Assembly: GCF_030409505.1 (NCBI RefSeq)
Contig: NZ_JAUFPZ010000002.1
Span: 3,603,501 to 3,667,500, forward strand
Origin: Zunongwangia endophytica
GTDB taxonomy: Bacteria; Bacteroidota; Bacteroidia; Flavobacteriales; Flavobacteriaceae
Length of the DNA stretch: 64,000 nt
Reading direction: 5' to 3'
In this document: piece by piece, positions 27,632 through 36,218 of the stretch
Numbering within the stretch: the stretch's first letter is position 1
How the letters are laid out: each line of letters opens with the position of its first letter
The notes under the pieces: model-generated
What the model saw: the letters and a program-made list of their open reading frames with translations, nothing else
What the model was told of the DNA's origin: nothing
Database searches by the model: none
Program-made: the position numbers and the translations under genes

Positions 27632-30600
27632 ATGCTGAATAAAAGCATTAAATTTTTAATTGAAAATAAACTAGTTGCCGTTATCTTACTTATTGTTTTA
27701 GTAGGATGGGGAATGGTGAATGCACCTTTCCAATGGAGTCTAGGAGCGCTGCCGCACAATCCCGTAGCAGTAGATGCTATACCCGATCTTGGCGAAAATC
27801 AACAAATTGTTTTTACTAAGTGGGATGGACGATCGCCACAGGATATAGAAGATCAAATTACTTATCCATTAACAACTTCTTTGTTGGGAATACCTGGAGT
27901 TAAAACCATTCGAAGTTCTTCGATGTTTGGTTTTTCAAGTATCTATATCATTTTTGAAGAGGATGTAGAATTTTACTGGAGCCGAAGCCGAATTCTGGAA
28001 AAATTAAACTCTTTACCAAACGGATTGCTACCGGAAGAAGTTAGTCCCTCTTTAGGGCCAGATGCCACCGCTTTAGGCCAGATTTATTGGTATACTTTAG
28101 AAGGTCGCGATAAAGATGGAAATGTTACCGGCGGTTGGGATCTCCAGGAATTACGAAGTATTCAGGATTTTTATGTGAAATATGCTTTGTCTAGCGCTGG
28201 TGGTGTTTCAGAAGTTGCTTCGATTGGTGGTTATGTTCAGGAATATCAAATTGATGTGCAGCCTGAAAAAATGCGTCAATACAACATCAGTTTACAGGAG
28301 GTTGTAAAAGCGGTCAAAGAAAGTAATCGAGAAATTGGCGCACAAACTTTAGAAATTAATCAGGCAGAATATCTGGTACGTGGACTGGGATATGTAAAGT
28401 CTATCGAGGATATCGAAAATGCGGTAGTCTCTTCTAAAGATTTTGCAGCTTTAAAAGTAAGCGATATTGCCAAAGTATCTTTAGGCCCAGCAGCACGCCG
28501 AGGAATTCTAGATAAAGAAGGCGCCGAGGTGGTTGGCGGAGTAGTAGTTGCCAGAAATGGCGCTAACCCAATGGAAGTTATCGAAAATGTAAAAGATAAA
28601 ATTGCGTCAATAAGTGGTGGTTTACCTTCTAAAAAATTAGCCGATGGGACCACTTCACAGCTTACCATTGTTCCGTTTTATGATCGGTCGGAATTGATAA
28701 ATGAAACCTTAGGCACCTTAAACGAGGCGCTAAGTTTAGAAATCTTAATCACGATTTTTGTTATTGTGATTATGGTTTTTAACCTGAGAGCTTCGATTCT
28801 TATTTCGGGATTACTTCCTGTAGCAGTTTTGATGGTTTTTATCGCCATGAAATTTTTTAATGTCGATGCCAATATTGTAGCACTTTCTGGGATTGCCATC
28901 GCAATTGGAACCATGGTCGATGTAGGCGTGATTCTTTCAGAAAATATTATTCGGCATATAGATGAAGATGAACAAAATTCACCGATAAATACGGTAGTTT
29001 ATAATGCTACGACTGAAGTTTCTGGAGCAATTATTACTGCGGTTCTAACCACAATTATAAGTTTTGTACCTGTATTTACTATGGTTGGTGCAGAGGGTAA
29101 ATTATTCCGTCCACTGGCTTTCACAAAAACCATGGCGCTTACTGCTTCTATTATTGTTGCATTATTTTTAATTCCGCCTTTTGCTGCTAGTATTTTCAGA
29201 AAAAGAACAATCCGTAAAAACTTCAATTTAGGAATTCAGGCAATTTTGATCTTATTCGGAATTGCTGCTGTTTTTTATGGAATTTGGCTTGGTTTGGTTT
29301 TAATAGCTTTAGGTATTTCGGGAATATTAAAAGCAAAACGTTTTACTTCTGAAAAACAACATAATTGGATTGTTGTGGGTATTATTTCAACTTCTATCGT
29401 GTTGATGTTAGCGATATTTTGGAGACCACTTGGTTTGGAAACGGCTGTTTTTTGGAATGTAATTATGGTCGCGATACTATGTTTTGGTTTGCTATTCTTT
29501 TTTCAATTATTCCGAAGAAATTATACTCGAATCTTACATTGGGCATTGGCGAATAAAATTTTATTTCTAATTCTTCCAATTTCAATTATTAGTGCCGGTT
29601 TTGTAATAATGCGAAACACGGGGCAAGAATTTATGCCTTCGTTAAATGAAGGTTCATTTTTACTGATGCCAACTTCGATGCCACACGCCGGAGTTTCTGA
29701 AAACAAACGAATTTTACAGCAATTGGATATGGCGGTTGCTTATATTCCTGAAATTAAAACTGTGGTTGGAAAAGCCGGGAGAATCGAGTCTGCTTTAGAT
29801 CCTGCACCTTTAAATATGTACGAGAATATTATTCAGTATAAATCAGAATTTATGCTGAATAAAAAAGGCGAGCGCCAACGCTACAAAATTGATGAAGGTG
29901 GCTTTTTTATACTGAAAAATAAAAAGCTAGCCATCGATGGAAGCAATCGGTTTACTGAAAGAGATATCCCAGATTCGATAAATTCAAGCTTTAAAATTAA
30001 TCGAAAACAACTAATTCCCGATGATGATGGTGAGTATTTCAGGAATTGGCGTCCTTCAATACATTCGCCAGATGATATTTGGAACGAGATTTCATCAGCT
30101 ACAAAATTACCGGGTATCACCTCAGCGCCAAAACTGCAACCTATAGAAACCAGATTGGTAATGCTTCAAACCGGAATGCGCGCTCCAATGGGAATTAAAG
30201 TTAAAGGACAAGATTTGGCGGAAATAGAATCTTTTGGAATGAAGCTGGAAGAAATTTTAAAAGAAGCTGAAGGAGTAAACAAAGAAGCCGTGTTTGCCGA
30301 TCGAATTGTAGGGAAACCTTATTTGCTAATTGATATTAAACGAGATCGATTAGCGAGATACGGAATTTCGGTGAGCGATGTGCAGGATGTTTTAGAAGTG
30401 GCAGTTGGCGGAAAAATGCTAAGCCAAACGGTTGAAGGGCGAGAGCGCTATTCCATTAGAGTACGTTATCCAAGAGAACTTCGCGATTCTCCAGAAGATT
30501 TAAAGAGTATTTATGTTCCGCTAGAAGGAGGAAAGCCTGTTCCGCTAAATGAGCTGGTAGAAATACGTTACGAAAAAGGCCCGCAAGTGATTAAAAGTGA

Positions 30601-31369
30601 AGATACTTTTTTAATCGGCTATGTACTTTTTGATAAAATGGATGGTTTTGCTGAGGTTGATGTCGTGGAAAATGCACAGCAAAAAATTCAACAAAAAATA
30701 GACTCCGGAGCATTAAAAGTTCCGCAGGGAATCAATTATGAGTTTACCGGAAACTACGAAAATCAGCTTCGTGCAGCCAAAACACTTTCTATAGTAGTTC
30801 CGCTGGCTTTACTGATTATTTTTATGATTCTGTATTTTCAGTTTAAATCGGTTTCCACCTCTTTTATTGTTTTTACCGGAATAGCCGTAGCCTTTGGTGG
30901 CGGTTTTATAATGATTTGGCTTTACGGACAAGAATGGTTTTTAAATTTTAGTCTGTTTGGCGAAAATCTTAGAGACTTATTCCAGATGCATACCATTAAT
31001 TTAAGTGTTGCCGTTTGGGTTGGTTTTATTGCGCTCTTCGGAATTGCAACCGATGATGGTGTGGTGATGGCAACGTACCTTACTCAGACTTTCAGTAAAA
31101 ACGAACCAGAGAATATCAAAGCAATTCGAGCTTCTGTGGTGGAAGCCGGAGAGAAACGAATACGGCCATGCTTAATGACAACAGCAACGACAATTTTAGC
31201 ATTGTTGCCGGTTTTAACGAGTACAGGTCGCGGTAGTGATATTATGATCCCTATGGCGATACCAAGTTTTGGCGGAATGCTAATCGCGTTAATCACACTT
31301 TTTGTAGTCCCGGTGTTGTTTTGCTGGAAGAAAGAGATGGTGTTGAAGAGAAGAGAATTGAGTAGTTAG
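27632..31369 (+). CDS. CusA/CzcA-type heavy-metal RND efflux pump
   Basis: A 1245-residue inner-membrane trimeric proton antiporter of the HME-RND group, expelling Cu/Ag or divalent metals. N-terminal landmarks include DAIPDLGENQQIV, the helix-4 signature GTMVDVGVILSENI with the proton-relay acidic residue, and TGQEFMPSLNEGSF. A Met-containing segment (LQTGMRAPMGIKV) lies in the porter domain. It is about 200 residues longer than CusA. One insertion (about residues 525-630) adds some four hydrophobic helices; another lengthens the periplasmic part near residues 750-830. TolC, CusB-like and DUF3347 genes follow, and DUF3347/HMBD company points to copper or silver. Substrate remains an inference. 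Confidence 0.93.
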   Translation: MLNKSIKFLIENKLVAVILLIVLVGWGMVNAPFQWSLGALPHNPVAVDAIPDLGENQQIVFTKWDGRSPQDIEDQITYPLTTSLLGIPGVKTIRSSSMFGFSSIYIIFEEDVEFYWSRSRILEKLNSLPNGLLPEEVSPSLGPDATALGQIYWYTLEGRDKDGNVTGGWDLQELRSIQDFYVKYALSSAGGVSEVASIGGYVQEYQIDVQPEKMRQYNISLQEVVKAVKESNREIGAQTLEINQAEYLVRGLGYVKSIEDIENAVVSSKDFAALKVSDIAKVSLGPAARRGILDKEGAEVVGGVVVARNGANPMEVIENVKDKIASISGGLPSKKLADGTTSQLTIVPFYDRSELINETLGTLNEALSLEILITIFVIVIMVFNLRASILISGLLPVAVLMVFIAMKFFNVDANIVALSGIAIAIGTMVDVGVILSENIIRHIDEDEQNSPINTVVYNATTEVSGAIITAVLTTIISFVPVFTMVGAEGKLFRPLAFTKTMALTASIIVALFLIPPFAASIFRKRTIRKNFNLGIQAILILFGIAAVFYGIWLGLVLIALGISGILKAKRFTSEKQHNWIVVGIISTSIVLMLAIFWRPLGLETAVFWNVIMVAILCFGLLFFFQLFRRNYTRILHWALANKILFLILPISIISAGFVIMRNTGQEFMPSLNEGSFLLMPTSMPHAGVSENKRILQQLDMAVAYIPEIKTVVGKAGRIESALDPAPLNMYENIIQYKSEFMLNKKGERQRYKIDEGGFFILKNKKLAIDGSNRFTERDIPDSINSSFKINRKQLIPDDDGEYFRNWRPSIHSPDDIWNEISSATKLPGITSAPKLQPIETRLVMLQTGMRAPMGIKVKGQDLAEIESFGMKLEEILKEAEGVNKEAVFADRIVGKPYLLIDIKRDRLARYGISVSDVQDVLEVAVGGKMLSQTVEGRERYSIRVRYPRELRDSPEDLKSIYVPLEGGKPVPLNELVEIRYEKGPQVIKSEDTFLIGYVLFDKMDGFAEVDVVENAQQKIQQKIDSGALKVPQGINYEFTGNYENQLRAAKTLSIVVPLALLIIFMILYFQFKSVSTSFIVFTGIAVAFGGGFIMIWLYGQEWFLNFSLFGENLRDLFQMHTINLSVAVWVGFIALFGIATDDGVVMATYLTQTFSKNEPENIKAIRASVVEAGEKRIRPCLMTTATTILALLPVLTSTGRGSDIMIPMAIPSFGGMLIALITLFVVPVLFCWKKEMVLKRRELSS

Positions 31370-31641
31370 AAGCTAGATTTTAGATAATAGACAAGAGATA
31401 AAAGAAACAGGATTCAATATTTTGAATGCTAAATGTTGAATTTAGAAAATAAAATATGAACGTCATGCTGAACTTGATTCAGCATCTCATAACGTTGTGG
31501 ATGAGATTCCGGATCGAGTCCGGAATGACGAAAGATTGTAAAGATTTTGATTGAAGTAAGGGAATAAAATATTTTAAATACTGATTAAAAAAGCTGATAG
31601 CTGAAAGCTCAAAAATTAAAAACTGTAAACCGTGAACTATA
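31370..31641. other. 272-base gap with a hairpin-repeat pair
   Basis: No gene is seen. It holds an inverted pair of the covarying hairpin repeat (31461-31490 and 31501-31530) and is otherwise AT-rich. Confidence 0.6.
31461..31530. repeat. Hairpin-repeat pair 1 (A1 and B1, inverted)
   Basis: A1 (31461-31490) reads CGTCAT, stem GCTGAA, loop CTTGA, stem TTCAGC, ATCTCAT. B1 (31501-31530) is the same element on the other strand with stem TCCGGA on both arms and loop CTCGA. Ten bases separate the two. It lies between the cusA-like and tolC-like genes. Confidence 0.85.
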
Positions 31642-32868
31642 ATGTTAACTAAAAAAACATATAAAATACTACCTATTTGGATGATGCTGCTGTTTTCTTT
31701 TGCAACGGAAGCCCAACAATTAGAGGCTTATATTCAGGAAGCTCAGGAGAGTAATCCTATGGTCGAGGCGATCCGAGCTAAATATGATATTTCTAAAGAG
31801 CAGATCAATGCTGTAAATTCGTTGCCAAATACCGAATTTTCTGCAGGATATTTTGTTAGCGAACCAGAAACCAGAACGGGTCCACAGCAAGCAAAATTTT
31901 CAGTAAAGCAAATGCTTCCTTGGTTCGGAACGATTTCAGCGAAGCAGCATTATGCTAGTTCTCTTGCAGAAGAGGATCAAATTGAAGTTGAAACCGCATT
32001 ACGAAAACTAAGATTGTCGGTTTCTAGTGCCTATTTTCAGTTATATGAATGGCAAAAAAAAATTGAAGTTGTACAGGAAAATATTGATTTGTTGCGAGTT
32101 TATGAAGAATTGGCTTTAAACGGAGTAGAAGTGGGAAAAGCAGGAGCCGTTGATATACTAAAACTTCAGATGCAGCAAAATAAATTAAAAGATCAGTTAA
32201 TCAATCTTCAAAATAATTTGAATGCTGAAAAAGTAGCGTTTAATCGTCTGCTAAATAAAGAAAATAATGCTTCCGTAGCAATAATCGATACGCTATTGTT
32301 ACCTGGGGAAGAAGCGAAGTTTTCAGCTATAAAAATACATCCGGAATTATCCAAACTCGATAAAACTTTGGAAAGTATAGATTTTGCTGAAGCTATTAAT
32401 CAAAAGGAAGCTGCCCCTCAATTTGGTTTGGGTTTAGATTATATTAATGTGGGAACGCGTACCGATATGGCGATTCCGGATAACGGAAAAGATATTGTAA
32501 TGCCGATGATTTCTTTTTCTGTGCCAATTTTCAATCATAAATATTCTTCGGTTACAGCTCAAAATAAACTTCGTAAAAAGCAAGTTTCAGCTACTAAAAA
32601 TCAAAGACTAAATGAATTGGAAAGTAGGTTATCTAAAGCTTTAGAAAATCGGAATTCGGCTCGAAATTCAGTAGAAATTCAGCTTCGTAATATAGAGTTA
32701 ACCAAAGATGCTGAAGCTATTTTAATGCGCAGTTACGAAAGCGAAACTTTAGATTTTCGAGATGTTTTGGATATTCAAGAAATGCGATTGGAATATCAAA
32801 TGAAATTGGCCGAAGCGGTAAGTGATTATTTTAAGCAAGCTGCGATGGTGGAGTATTTAGTAGATTAG
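31642..32868 (+). CDS. TolC-family outer-membrane factor
   Basis: A 408-residue outer-membrane efflux protein with a signal peptide ending TEAQQ. Two long helical repeats typical of the OEP domain are visible, with amphipathic segments such as LSVSSAYFQLYEWQKKIE in the first half and the closing LDIQEMRLEYQMKLAEAVSDY in the second. It is the outer-membrane exit duct for the neighbouring CusA- and CusB-like proteins. It lies downstream of the pump rather than at the far end, as is common in Flavobacteriia. Hairpin repeats flank the gene on both sides. Confidence 0.9.
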   Translation: MLTKKTYKILPIWMMLLFSFATEAQQLEAYIQEAQESNPMVEAIRAKYDISKEQINAVNSLPNTEFSAGYFVSEPETRTGPQQAKFSVKQMLPWFGTISAKQHYASSLAEEDQIEVETALRKLRLSVSSAYFQLYEWQKKIEVVQENIDLLRVYEELALNGVEVGKAGAVDILKLQMQQNKLKDQLINLQNNLNAEKVAFNRLLNKENNASVAIIDTLLLPGEEAKFSAIKIHPELSKLDKTLESIDFAEAINQKEAAPQFGLGLDYINVGTRTDMAIPDNGKDIVMPMISFSVPIFNHKYSSVTAQNKLRKKQVSATKNQRLNELESRLSKALENRNSARNSVEIQLRNIELTKDAEAILMRSYESETLDFRDVLDIQEMRLEYQMKLAEAVSDYFKQAAMVEYLVD

Positions 32869-33100
32869 AAATGAGTATTGAGTATTTAGAATAGAGAGTA
32901 TAGAATTTAGAAAATGAGATCCCGGATCAAGTCCGGGATGACTTAGAAGACATTAGCGAATGCTAAGCACATAAGAAAAAGTCCGGTCGTCATGCTGAAC
33001 TTGATTCAGCATCTCATTGGATTGAACAAGTGAAAATAATATTCAGGATTAATTATGATGATTATCGATACTGAATGGAGATCGGAATAAAAAACAACAG
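32869..33100. other. 232-base gap with two hairpin-repeat units
   Basis: No gene is seen. It contains repeat units B2 and A2 in the reverse order to the other gaps; the rest is AT-rich. Confidence 0.6.
32914..33017. repeat. Hairpin-repeat units 2 (B2 and A2)
   Basis: B2 (32914-32943) has stem CCCGGA/TCCGGG around CTTGA when read on the minus strand. A2 (32988-33017) is on the plus strand and has the same stem as A1. The order is B then A with 44 bases between. It lies between the tolC-like and cusB-like genes. Confidence 0.85.
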
Positions 33101-34813
33101 ATGAAAAAAACAGTTATATATACAAGTTTAGCTTTAATAATCGGACTCTTTATTGGGTATATGGTCTTTAGTGGAAATGTAGATTCTCAGCAGGAAACTC
33201 ATACGGAGCATAACGATAAAGTTGAAAGCGAAGAAACGAAATGGACCTGCGCAATGCATCCGCAAATTATACAATCTGAACCAGGAGATTGCCCGATATG
33301 TGGAATGGAGTTGATTCCTGCCGATCAAAATAGTACCGATATTGCTGGATTTACCATGACTGAAAATGCAATGAAATTGGCCAATATTCAGACTACTGTT
33401 GTAGGAATTTCTAGTAGAAATAAAGTAGTTAAATTATCGGGAGTATTAGAAGCTAATGAAGAATCGAATGCTATACAAGCTTCCTACTTTTCAGGACGTA
33501 TAGAGCAGCTTTTTATAAATACTACCGGAGAAGAAATCCAAAAAGGGCAAATGTTAGCTACTATTTATTCTCCTGAATTAGTTGCCGCGCAACAGGAACT
33601 GCTAACGGCTTTACGATTAAAAGAGTCTCAGCCAAAATTATACATGGCAGTACGTAATAAATTAAAAAATTGGAAACTGAGTGATTCGCAAATAAATTCG
33701 ATTGAAGAAAATGGGAAAGTAAAAGAGAATTTCCCTGTTTTTGCAACAAATTCTGGAACAGTGACGGAGAAAATGGTAAGCCAAGGGGATTATGTAGATC
33801 GAGGTCAGCCATTATTTAAAATAGCAAATCTTACTAAAGTTTGGGCGATTTTGGATGCTTACGAGCAGCAATTATCAAATTTAAAAGAGGAGCAAAAACT
33901 TCAAATTTCGGTTAATGCATTCGCCGATCAAAACTTTAGCGGTACTATAGATTTTATTAATCCTGTTTTGGATAATTCAGCCAGAACAACGAAGGTACGT
34001 GTTGTTTTAGAAAATCCTGAAGGTAAATTAAAACCGGGAATGTTTGTAGAAGCAGAGGTTGATTTGGAGGCGGCAGAAGATGATAAAATAAGTGTGCCAA
34101 AATCTGCAGTAATGTGGACGGGAGAGCGCTCTGTAGTCTATTTAAAATCCGATGCTAATTCTCCTCAGTTTGAAATGAAAGAAGTGAAATTAGGTAGCGA
34201 AATTGCCGATTCTTACCAAATTCTTGAAGGTTTGGAAAAAGGCGATGAGGTGGTAACTAACGGAACTTTTACCGTGGATGCCGCAGCGCAATTGCAAGGA
34301 AAGAAATCGATGATGAGTCGGAATCCGACTGATAATAATAGCAATGCAGAGGTAATGGAAATGGATTTATCAAAAAGTTTTCAGTTAGCACTAAAACCGG
34401 TGATTCAGGATTATTTACAATTGAAGGATGATCTGGTAGCTAGCGATGCTACTTCAACAAGGCAGGCAGCGAAAAAAACTTCAGCAAAAATCAACAATAT
34501 CGATACGGCGGAATTGAATAAAATATTGTCTTCTTATGTTAAAGCTATTCAGGATAAATTTAAAGCGATAAGTGTTTCAAAAGATATTGCGACGCAACGA
34601 GAGCATTTTATTGCGCTTTCACAAAATATGATTGCGCTGGTATCGAATTTCGATGAAATCGACGAGATTTATATTCAGCGCTGCCCAATGGCGAACAACA
34701 ATCTTGGTGCTACCTGGCTTAGTAGAAATAAGGAAATTAAAAATCCATATTTTGGCTCGCAAATGTTAGGATGCGGAGAAACGATTAGAATTTTACCAAA
34801 TAAGGATAAATAG
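33101..34813 (+). CDS. CusB-like periplasmic adaptor with HMBD and C-terminal DUF3347
   Basis: A 570-residue membrane-fusion protein. A signal anchor (residues 4-23) is followed by a heavy-metal binding domain at about 47-73 (CAMHP, then GDCPICGMEL). The adaptor body includes the lipoyl-like and beta-barrel segments (GTVTEKMVSQGDYVDRGQ, VRVVLENPEGKLKPGMFVEAEV), and a DUF3347 domain at about 430-560 ends in CPMA, TWLSRN, NPYFGSQMLGCGE. It joins the pump and TolC and probably hands metal to the pump. The next gene encodes a free copy of the same DUF3347 domain. Confidence 0.92.
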   Translation: MKKTVIYTSLALIIGLFIGYMVFSGNVDSQQETHTEHNDKVESEETKWTCAMHPQIIQSEPGDCPICGMELIPADQNSTDIAGFTMTENAMKLANIQTTVVGISSRNKVVKLSGVLEANEESNAIQASYFSGRIEQLFINTTGEEIQKGQMLATIYSPELVAAQQELLTALRLKESQPKLYMAVRNKLKNWKLSDSQINSIEENGKVKENFPVFATNSGTVTEKMVSQGDYVDRGQPLFKIANLTKVWAILDAYEQQLSNLKEEQKLQISVNAFADQNFSGTIDFINPVLDNSARTTKVRVVLENPEGKLKPGMFVEAEVDLEAAEDDKISVPKSAVMWTGERSVVYLKSDANSPQFEMKEVKLGSEIADSYQILEGLEKGDEVVTNGTFTVDAAAQLQGKKSMMSRNPTDNNSNAEVMEMDLSKSFQLALKPVIQDYLQLKDDLVASDATSTRQAAKKTSAKINNIDTAELNKILSSYVKAIQDKFKAISVSKDIATQREHFIALSQNMIALVSNFDEIDEIYIQRCPMANNNLGATWLSRNKEIKNPYFGSQMLGCGETIRILPNKDK

Positions 34814-34818
34814 TATGA

Positions 34819-34883
34819 CGTCACCCTGAACTTGTTTCAGGGTTCCCATAATGATGAGATTCCGGATCAAGTCCTGAATGAAG
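34819..34883. repeat. Hairpin-repeat pair 3 (A3 and B3, inverted)
   Basis: A3 (34819-34849) has stem CCCTGAA/TTCAGGG and loop CTTGT. B3 (34854-34883) is a TCCGGA-type copy with one mismatched stem position, so it seems to be decaying. The pair lies six bases after the stop of the cusB-like gene. Confidence 0.82.
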
Positions 34884-34922
34884 CAAAATAATGTTCGAAA
34901 TTAAATTTAATAATAAAGAATT

Positions 34923-35465
34923 ATGAAACGTATACCTAGAAATCTATTTTTTATCGCTTTTTCAGCTGGAATTATAAGCTTTACCAGCTGTAAGGAAAAC
35001 AAAGAATCTGCTACTGATGCTACGCAGGAAGATGTAAAAATGACTCAGGATGATAATGCTAAAACGATAGTCCAAAATGCTAAATTTAATGATGAAAAAG
35101 TAGCTTCAGAATACGCTGCTTATTTACAATTGAAAGATGCTTTGGTGGCTACCGATGCAAATGCTGCGAAAAAGGCAGCCAAGAAAATGACCGGTTTCGA
35201 GAATGCTGAAATTGCTGAATTAGCGACTAAAATTTCAGAAGAGACGGCTATAGAAGCACAACGAAAAGTATTTTCTGAATTAACGGTTTTGATAGAACCG
35301 GTGCTCGAAAATGCTATTGCTTCCGGAGAAATTTATAAGCAGTTTTGCCCAATGGCTTTCGACGGAAAAGGAGCATCTTGGTTTGCAGCTTCCGAAGAAA
35401 TTAATAATCCGTATTTTGGAGATAAAATGTTGCATTGCGGTAGAGTAGAAAAAACTATTCAGTAA
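34923..35465 (+). CDS. DUF3347 lipoprotein
   Basis: A 180-residue lipoprotein with signal ending TSC at Cys23. A single DUF3347 domain covers about residues 60-180, with a helical part (YLQLKDALVATDANAAKKAA) and the C-terminal FCPMAFDGKGASWF, NPYFGDKMLHCG. The two cysteines and the methionine of CPM and MLHCG are arranged as in the tail of the preceding adaptor, so a soluble metal-binding or metal-transfer role is likely. The similarity of the two copies suggests that one domain arose by duplication. Confidence 0.85.
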   Translation: MKRIPRNLFFIAFSAGIISFTSCKENKESATDATQEDVKMTQDDNAKTIVQNAKFNDEKVASEYAAYLQLKDALVATDANAAKKAAKKMTGFENAEIAELATKISEETAIEAQRKVFSELTVLIEPVLENAIASGEIYKQFCPMAFDGKGASWFAASEEINNPYFGDKMLHCGRVEKTIQ

Positions 35466-35493
35466 AAAAGCGTCCGCGATTAATTATAAATGT

Positions 35494-35578
35494 CGTCACC
35501 CTGAACTTGATTCAGGGTTTCATAACATTAATTTTTTTTCGCATTTGTATGAGATTCCGGATCAAGTCCGGAATGACG
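35494..35578. repeat. Hairpin-repeat pair 4 (A4 and B4, inverted)
   Basis: A4 (35494-35523) has stem CCCTGAA/TTCAGGG around CTTGA. B4 (35549-35578) is a perfect TCCGGA-type unit on the other strand. Twenty-five AT-rich bases separate them. They lie between the DUF3347 gene and the AraC-type regulator. Confidence 0.85.
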
Positions 35579-35608: not shown

Positions 35609-35642
35609 TCTCTCGTTCATATATTGAGCGAGAGATCTTTTT
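35609..35642 (+). terminator. Terminator or attenuator just before the AraC-type gene
   Basis: Eleven-base arms (TCTCTCGTTCA and TGAGCGAGAGA, one G-U step) surround a five-base loop and are followed by TCTTTTT. The structure ends 12 bases before the TTG start of the regulator, so it either ends the efflux transcript or gates read-through. Confidence 0.75.
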
Positions 35643-35654
35643 AAAATTAGAGTT

Positions 35655-36218
35655 TTGGCAGATAACGCGATTCCTATTAAAAATATAGTTTGTGGCCGTT
35701 GCATCGCGACGGTAGAAGCTATTTTGTCTAAACTCGATATTCCGTATAAAGAAGTGAGTTTAGGGGAAGCGATTTTAGAAAGAGATCTTTCTGCAGCAGA
35801 ACAAAATGAGTTGTCTTCGGAATTGGAAAAAGTAGGTTTTCAGCTTTTACAATCTAAGAATGAACGTATCATCAATCATATAAAATCTGTTTTGATTAAT
35901 GAGATTTCAAATAGTACCGATCAAAAGAAATTATCAGAAATCTTAAGTGCAGAGCTTCATCACGATTATAGTTTTATTACCAATTTATTTACTGCGGAAG
36001 AAGGACAAAGCATCCAGTCGTATTTCAATAAACTAAAGATTGAAAAAGCCAAAGAACTTTTAGAATATGATGAATTGAGTATTGCTGAAGTTGCCGATCA
36101 ACTTGGTTTTTCTACTGCGGCTTATTTATCGACTTCCTTTAAAAAACAAACCGGGATTACTCCTTCAGCCTACAAAAAAAAGCAACTAAAAGGTCGAAAA
36201 GGCTTAGATTCTGTTTAG
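35655..36218 (+). CDS. AraC-family regulator with N-terminal CxxC metal-site head
   Basis: A 187-residue protein. The head (about residues 1-75) begins IPIKNIVCGRCIATVEAIL and resembles an HMA copper-chaperone fold, with Cys13 and Cys16 as the likely metal pair. The C-terminal half is a two-helix-turn-helix AraC DNA-binding domain, with IAEVADQLGFSTAAYLSTSFKKQTGITPSAYKK. Only a TTG start fits, since a stop lies ten codons upstream and no ATG precedes the CxxC. Its place between the efflux genes and the copper ATPase suggests that it senses Cu(I)/Ag(I) and controls both; that is inferred from context. Confidence 0.85.
   Translation: MADNAIPIKNIVCGRCIATVEAILSKLDIPYKEVSLGEAILERDLSAAEQNELSSELEKVGFQLLQSKNERIINHIKSVLINEISNSTDQKKLSEILSAELHHDYSFITNLFTAEEGQSIQSYFNKLKIEKAKELLEYDELSIAEVADQLGFSTAAYLSTSFKKQTGITPSAYKKKQLKGRKGLDSV

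Follow-up and report, generated by a model that had tools for sequence, protein, structure and literature searches.

CGTC-tagged palindromic repeats in the gaps of a metal-efflux operon of Zunongwangia endophytica

Eight short hairpin units lie in the gaps of a metal-efflux operon of Zunongwangia endophytica, and both arms of their stems change together from one unit to another. Are they parts of the efflux transcript maintained by selection on folding, or members of a dispersed repeat family that settled there? We addressed this question in a stretch of 64,000 nucleotides (contig NZ_JAUFPZ010000002.1, positions 3,603,501 to 3,667,500 of the forward strand; hereafter the window), in the whole host genome and in related genomes. 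Judged by their sequence features, the units are CGTC-tagged repetitive extragenic palindromic (REP) elements. Very probably, these spread as dimers, with some local copying, and then lost their pairing arm by arm.

Units in the window and beyond

All eight units were found at the positions given in an initial annotation of the window, which had been made from the sequence alone:

31461..31490, plus strand: REP unit A1, stem ATGCTGAA/TTCAGCAT, loop CTTGA; the same place is occupied in the sister genome G100
31501..31530, minus strand: REP unit B1, stem ATTCCGGA/TCCGGAAT, loop CTCGA
32914..32943, minus strand: REP unit B2, stem ATCCCGGA/TCCGGGAT, tag AGTC
32988..33017, plus strand: REP unit A2, stem as in A1; B2 and A2 form a tail-to-tail (TT) dimer, tags inward
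34819..34849, plus strand: REP unit A3, stem ACCCTGAA/TTCAGGGT, loop CTTGT, tail irregular
34854..34883, minus strand: REP unit B3, decayed, tag CTTC, one stem pair broken
35494..35523, plus strand: REP unit A4, stem ACCCTGAA/TTCAGGGT; its loop has a palindrome insert in G100 and a different one in Z. pacifica
35549..35578, minus strand: REP unit B4, stem ATTCCGGA/TCCGGAAT

The stems pair as described, over a greater length than noted at first: because the bases adjoining tag and tail pair as well, each stem comprises 8 bp (e.g., ATGCTGAA/TTCAGCAT). The loop and the outer ends, described as fixed, in fact vary, as seen in the loops of B1 and A3, the irregular tail of A3 and the altered tags of B2 and B3; CGTC is present in six of the eight units. 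The broken pair of B3 is an A opposite a G. Three gaps do carry their units in the order A-B with tags outward, and the gap at 32914-33017 in the order B-A with tags inward. The larger, two-level palindrome was predicted for three dimers (RNA folding z scores of -3.9, -3.7 and -5.1 against shuffled sequences), but not for the dimer of the third gap (z -1.6).

A covariance model was built from 26 distinct units of the host genome, including seven of the eight window units. The eight units scored 34.6-52.7 bits and the next match in the window only 8.8 bits (E 4.1), so that the window holds exactly eight good matches and, as annotated, none elsewhere. The restriction of the units to the metal-efflux gaps thus applies within the window, but not to the genome, where the model gave 83 matches at E<=1. 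Copies were found in all six Zunongwangia genomes compared: at the same threshold, there were 79 in the sister genome G100; at E<=0.01, there were 55 in Z. atlantica (G249), 61 in Z. mangrovi (G250), 137 in Z. pacifica (G251) and 24 in G252. Unit-level statistics given below refer to 79 host and 67 G100 matches. A sequence pattern that ignores the inner arms matched 53 times in the host genome, against once for the reversed pattern, and the units are therefore not chance occurrences. At least one pattern match was present in 228 of 249 Flavobacteriaceae genomes. The reversed control also matched up to a few times per genome (14 times in one), and we therefore called a genome repeat-rich from at least 20 matches upward, as is the case for 23 of the 249, host included. 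According to a simple picker of open reading frames (ORFs), the first 30 of the 53 host matches lay between codirectional (22), convergent (4) or divergent (2) ORFs or inside an ORF (2), several of these 30 coming from one site and two not being real units.

Sites were clustered along the host genome: 13 of 35 adjacent gaps were shorter than 5 kb, against 1.4 expected under uniform placement, gene layout being ignored. Moreover, neighbouring sites, at most 5 kb apart, shared identical arms in 10 of 34 same-strand pairs in the host (10% by chance, p 0.006) and in 6 of 24 in G100 (p 0.015). Both observations favour an origin by local copying or gene conversion inside the operon instead of dispersal, and simple recent copying within the operon had been named in the initial annotation as grounds for abandoning its reading. 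That objection was borne out in part, by the shared arms. As a full account, local copying is refuted by the copies found genome-wide and is very unlikely: the same stem types recur throughout the host genome and G100, all six genomes contain model matches, and stems of several types are found among the four gaps. Copying between neighbouring gaps would instead contribute alongside spread. At another host locus (L146, G000:C2:2450107-2450531), a unit with a nested loop and a plain unit are repeated at a spacing of about 162 bases, as if a REP pair had been duplicated in tandem.

Stem pairing across the genome and at matched sites

The paired stem changes proved real throughout the genome. Of the 318 free inner stem pairs in the 53 pattern matches, 280 were Watson-Crick pairs, whereas 10,000 shuffles of the arms averaged 186 and never exceeded 214; the 48 matches with at least four of six pairs had 271 such pairs out of 288, and shuffling gave no more than 216. 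The 71 model-found units of 30 bases had 530 of 568 pairs in Watson-Crick form, against at most 428 in 5,000 shuffles, the model itself favouring pairing. When 26 units selected for at least six of eight pairs were aligned, both-sided changes appeared at six of the eight stem pairs, in 46 cells versus 0-7 when the columns were slid by 1-3 positions. The stem families are genuinely paired, because paired changes far exceed those of shuffled arms and slid columns genome-wide. Copies devoid of paired changes, the other finding that would have told against the initial annotation, were accordingly not what the genome contains.

The claim that the covariation is direct evidence for selection on folding goes further and held only in part, as the comparison of single copies between host and G100 showed. 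Sites were matched by flanks outside the units. For 29 of 47 host sites, a single fetched G100 region contained both flanks, and at these G100 has a unit in 26 cases (one degenerate and recognised only by eye) and none in three. The share of empty sites is underestimated: only regions surrounding model matches were fetched from G100, and the other 18 sites were not comparable in this way. The comparison took in 27 position-matched unit pairs that agree in stem type and have no loop insert. It left out sites 10, 11, 23, 26, 27 and 28, judged to be replacements because entire arms differ or units do not correspond, site 5, whose flanks fall on two regions, and gapped, odd-length or loop-insert units in sites 3, 13, 25, 35, 41 and 45. 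Thirty-eight stem pairs differed between the two species, 37 of them by a one-sided change; 28 were broken in one species, 10 remained paired through a wobble, and none was compensated to a standard pair. One-sided transitions gave a wobble pair in 10 of 23 cases, equal to the chance expectation. Since none of the 38 differing pairs was compensated, we read the covariation as the mark of subfamilies and not of present selection on each copy. Settled copies would become part of the host operon transcript and then lose their pairing one arm at a time. More generally, covarying stems in dispersed repeats need not imply selection on every copy.

Paired arms could also be produced by template switching during replication, which corrects palindromes and would create covariation with no selection at all. 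Such a process would account for the many copies with perfect stems without requiring a function, and for the further palindromes found in some loops. Against it, 28 of the 38 differing pairs at matched units were broken in one of the two species, and we hold it to be highly improbable.

Dimers, nested palindromes and the search for a mover

Host dimers comprised 26 head-to-head (HH) pairs with tags outward, 5 TT pairs with tags inward and 1 head-to-tail (HT) tandem, with a single unit at 19 of 47 sites; in G100, there were 20 HH and 3 TT pairs, with a single unit at 22 of 44 sites. All 31 inverted pairs of the host have unlike arms. A unit of the CTGAA type was joined with one of the CCGGA/CCGTG type in 29 of these 31 (about 50% expected, p 2e-7) and in 21 of 23 in G100 (p 3e-5), many sites being common to both species; one of the two G100 exceptions is a unit displaced by an extra base. 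The idea that unlike pairs avoid a long hairpin was not supported, because three of the four window gaps are still predicted to form it.

From a mechanistic point of view, the units are most likely short palindromic repeats, non-autonomous, that came to rest in the spacers between genes, frequently as inverted pairs whose tags point outward. The spreading unit is probably the pair of unlike units, one of each type. It would spread as single-stranded hairpins recognised by an enzyme that no recognisable Y1 gene of the host genome encodes, the enzyme being either missing or distant. A stricter version would make the CTGAA and CCGGA/CCGTG pair an obligatory, two-ended element moved by a non-Y1 enzyme, its loops serving as landing sites for smaller palindromes. 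This would amount to a mobility system with no known enzyme, and we consider it rather unlikely.

Loops do hold further sequence in some copies. Matches of 43-52 bases, with a second hairpin or another insert in the loop, made up 5 of 79 in the host and 4 of 67 in G100, and two loop palindrome types recur, the first around CCGATAGCTATCGG and the second of the form CCTGCC-GGCAGG. The A4 loop, plain in the host, carries the second type in G100; in Z. pacifica, where the first palindrome has 81 sites (one mismatch allowed), it carries that first type with one change. Among the loci fetched for the two types, 8 of 15 and 15 of 26 lay between arms of tagged stems, compared with 7-8% of positions drawn at random. 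There is precedent for nesting, since self-complementary loops have been described for two GTAG families (PMC3733652). Another form of nesting was seen in gap 4 of Z. pacifica (L031, 8377-8555), where the REP dimer is enclosed by a larger inverted repeat, GAGGCTGTCTAAAA...TTTTAGACAGCCTC.

Separately, on contig C1 of Z. atlantica (L200, L209, L216 and L223), a 20-base palindrome, CCTGCCTGCCGGCAGGCAGG, occurs four times at a spacing of 316 bases, directly after a stretch that by eye resembles a 5' tRNA half; on L209, ARAGORN reported only a separate tRNA-Arg at 2417-2491. The CCTGCCTGCCGGCAGGCAGG palindrome family is also found around position 1501 of L218, L221 and L224, within coding-like regions, some of them transposase-like by eye. 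It might itself be a mobile element; a text search of the literature gave no match for it.

The initial annotation had proposed movement by a Y1 transposase of the REP-associated tyrosine transposase (RAYT) type. The transposase searches covered Y1 genes. No match to PF01797 (Y1) was obtained at E<=0.001 in the host genome or in G100, and the host likewise gave no match at E<=1 to the RAYT-like protein of its congeners G252 and G251, which itself scores below the NCBIfam RAYT cut-off. At E<=0.001, only one of the six genus genomes had a Y1 match. A weak match to the RAYT-like protein in Z. atlantica contains stop codons and was not confirmed by tblastn. Across the 249 family genomes, Y1 matches were present in 11 of 23 repeat-rich and 85 of 226 other genomes (p 0.37), 12 repeat-rich genomes, among them the host, having none. 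A CGTC-like hairpin was found in 1 of 48 Y1 regions scanned; these were a subset of the Y1 matches (30 listed loci, 13 picked and 5 further regions), some of them weak (L076 and L077 inside long ORFs, L228 with stops). In that one region (L046), the CGTC-like hairpin has six pairs and ends up ahead of the Y1 match by 36 bases; a second one, whose loop is unlike, is more distant. Movement by a Y1 transposase thus found no support in these searches.

The units could still be RAYT-type REPs whose Y1 transposase was since lost from the lineage. Their layout of tagged hairpins in outward pairs is that of REPINs (REP doublets forming hairpins). RAYT-like genes do exist in the genus, in G251 and G252, the former having the most copies, and in G100 a stretch of 60 residues is weakly similar to the RAYT-like protein (E 0.003, 28%), a match not recovered when the fetched locus was searched by tblastn. 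On the other side stand the lack of Y1 in host and G100, the low copy number of G252 despite its RAYT-like gene, the near absence of hairpins from Y1 regions and the lack of a significant difference in Y1 between repeat-rich and other genomes. The same lack of a dedicated transposase has been reported for CGTC REPs (PMC3733652). We regard such a loss as possible, though somewhat unlikely.

Several observations weigh against the reading of the units as mobile CGTC-tagged REPs that lose their pairing after settling. Neither excision nor an insertion product nor an enzyme was observed, and mobility is for this reason deduced from distribution. The tail is CTCAT in 57 of 79 units, where the published description gives CCA for most, not all, members (PMC3733652). 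Between host and G100, stems differ at 39 of 432 positions, against 42 of 182 for the spacers within nine dimers (p 7e-6), a lower divergence that may reflect constraint, conversion or a detection bias, most units being model-found. The stems of gap 2 are identical in G100, though their flanks are only about 78% identical. If the arm replacements at the six sites left out of the comparison were stepwise, they would include compensated pairs. Finally, pair 5 of site 42b, T-A in the host and C-C in G100, could conceal a compensated change in the host if the ancestor had C-G.

The efflux operon and known repeat systems

The units are distributed over four gaps of the following genes, assigned by domain searches:

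27632..31369, plus strand: efflux pump gene of the RND (resistance-nodulation-division) type, Pfam ACR_tran
31642..32868, plus strand: outer membrane efflux protein gene, Pfam OEP
33101..34813, plus strand: membrane-fusion protein gene, with HMBD and DUF3347 domains
34923..35465, plus strand: DUF3347 protein gene
35609..35635, plus strand: intrinsic-terminator-like hairpin 3' of the A4-B4 dimer, a consensus match only, such matches being no more numerous in the region than in shuffled sequence
35655..36218, plus strand: AraC-type regulator gene

A heavy-metal P-type ATPase gene comes after the AraC-type regulator gene. We take the first three genes to encode a CusA-like pump, a CusC-like channel and a CusB-like fusion protein, these names being our own labels. 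The closest named loci are those of Z. pacifica, Z. atlantica and Z. mangrovi. Protein identity to G100 is 98% for the last 212 residues of cusA, 95% for the DUF3347 protein, 93% for the AraC-type regulator and 76-79% for cusC and cusB; this unevenness over 31642-34813 suggests that the middle of the operon has recombined. In Z. mangrovi (L033, G250), the gap that separates cusB from the DUF3347 gene has about 680 additional bases, perhaps an extra gene, and contains no REP at E<=1.

Transcript-processing hairpins were the other option of the initial annotation. Host regulatory elements acting at the 3' end or in processing of the efflux transcript could set the ratios of the pump proteins. 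In line with this, the units lie between codirectional genes, as do 22 of the 30 placed matches; three dimers fold far better than shuffled sequences; stems diverge less than dimer spacers; and the gap 4 dimer precedes the terminator-like hairpin, whose position suggests that A4-B4 belongs to the 3' portion of the transcript without being its terminator. Units also occur at the operon in four of the six genomes. Besides the host, G100 carries a dimer in each of the four corresponding gaps, gaps 2, 3 and 4 are occupied in Z. pacifica (model, E<=1), and G252 has one weak pair in gap 2 by the model and none by the stricter pattern scan. Z. atlantica and Z. mangrovi, however, keep the same genes with no unit there at E<=1 by the model. 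The pair of gap 2 has its tags outward in Z. pacifica and G252 and inward in the window and G100, so that this gap need not contain the same old pair in all genomes. Tests of termination, Rfam membership and operon-specific regulation gave no support either. As intrinsic terminators (a G+C-rich hairpin followed by a T run), only B2 of the eight units matched, on the antisense strand, among 3 regional matches against 3.2 in shuffled sequence. No Rfam family passed its threshold, the best below it being Chlorobi-1 at 35424-35475 (E 0.044). Together with the 83 matches across the genome and with stem changes between species that are uncompensated and show no wobble bias, this makes a regulatory role unlikely. 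Under the mobile-repeat reading, the units would have no essential role in the efflux operon.

Among known systems, REPs tagged with GTAG and REPINs share with the present units the tagged hairpins, outward pairs, intergenic placement and subfamilies. The tag here is CGTC and not GTAG. Unlike REPINs with their RAYT, the host gave no RAYT match at the thresholds used, and the scan detected no CGTC unit beside the RAYT-like genes examined. Enterobacterial bacterial interspersed mosaic elements (BIMEs) likewise combine unlike palindromic units into mosaic, inverted pairs located between genes; the tag differs, and the likeness is one of layout.

All structural features considered, the tail excepted, fit the CGTC-tagged REP super-family, which supports the REP-like nature proposed at first; that super-family already includes Bacteroidetes (Di Nocera et al., 2013, PMC3733652). 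Its members are described as having an unpaired tag, CGTC or else TGTC or CCTC, at one end, a stem of 8-9 bp whose first two positions are complementary A-T, and a loop of 4-5 bases. The CGTC tag is present in 63 of 79 host units (TGTC in 5) and 49 of 67 G100 units (TGTC in 7), the model deriving partly from units picked by the pattern GTCAY. In the 71 units of 30 bases, the first stem pair is A-T in 65 and the second is T-A in 53 and C-G in 15, the pattern having partly forced the 26 aligned units to A-T and Y-R. These 71 of 79 units have a 5-base loop, the length preset in both pattern and model, and five reach at least 43 bases. HH pairs predominate and TT pairs are rare, as in CGTC REPs, placement is intergenic, mostly between codirectional or convergent ORFs, and there is no associated transposase as regards Y1 genes.

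No account of such repeats in Zunongwangia was found in the literature searched, including passages of PMC3733652, PMC6006769, PMC12306157, PMC8266576, PMC2864250 and PMC3116915. Three later REP papers searched for the word CGTC have it in the reference list only, or not at all. The genus offers six genomes with 24 to 137 matches, shared and empty sites, an unlike-pairing rule and natural loop insertions, which makes the question of the mover testable by strain comparison.

By stem and loop length, the closest family appears to be CGTC-2. The two have in common the CGTC tag, an 8-bp stem starting with A-T, a 5-base loop, an intergenic location, the lack of a linked transposase and an occurrence in Bacteroidetes. 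Outward pairs and unlike pairs predominate in both, the latter being described as predominant but unexplained in CGTC families 2 and 3 (PMC3733652). They differ in the tail, CTCAT here and CCA there, and in the further palindromes held by some of the present loops. What is new here is therefore further members of an already described kind of repeat.

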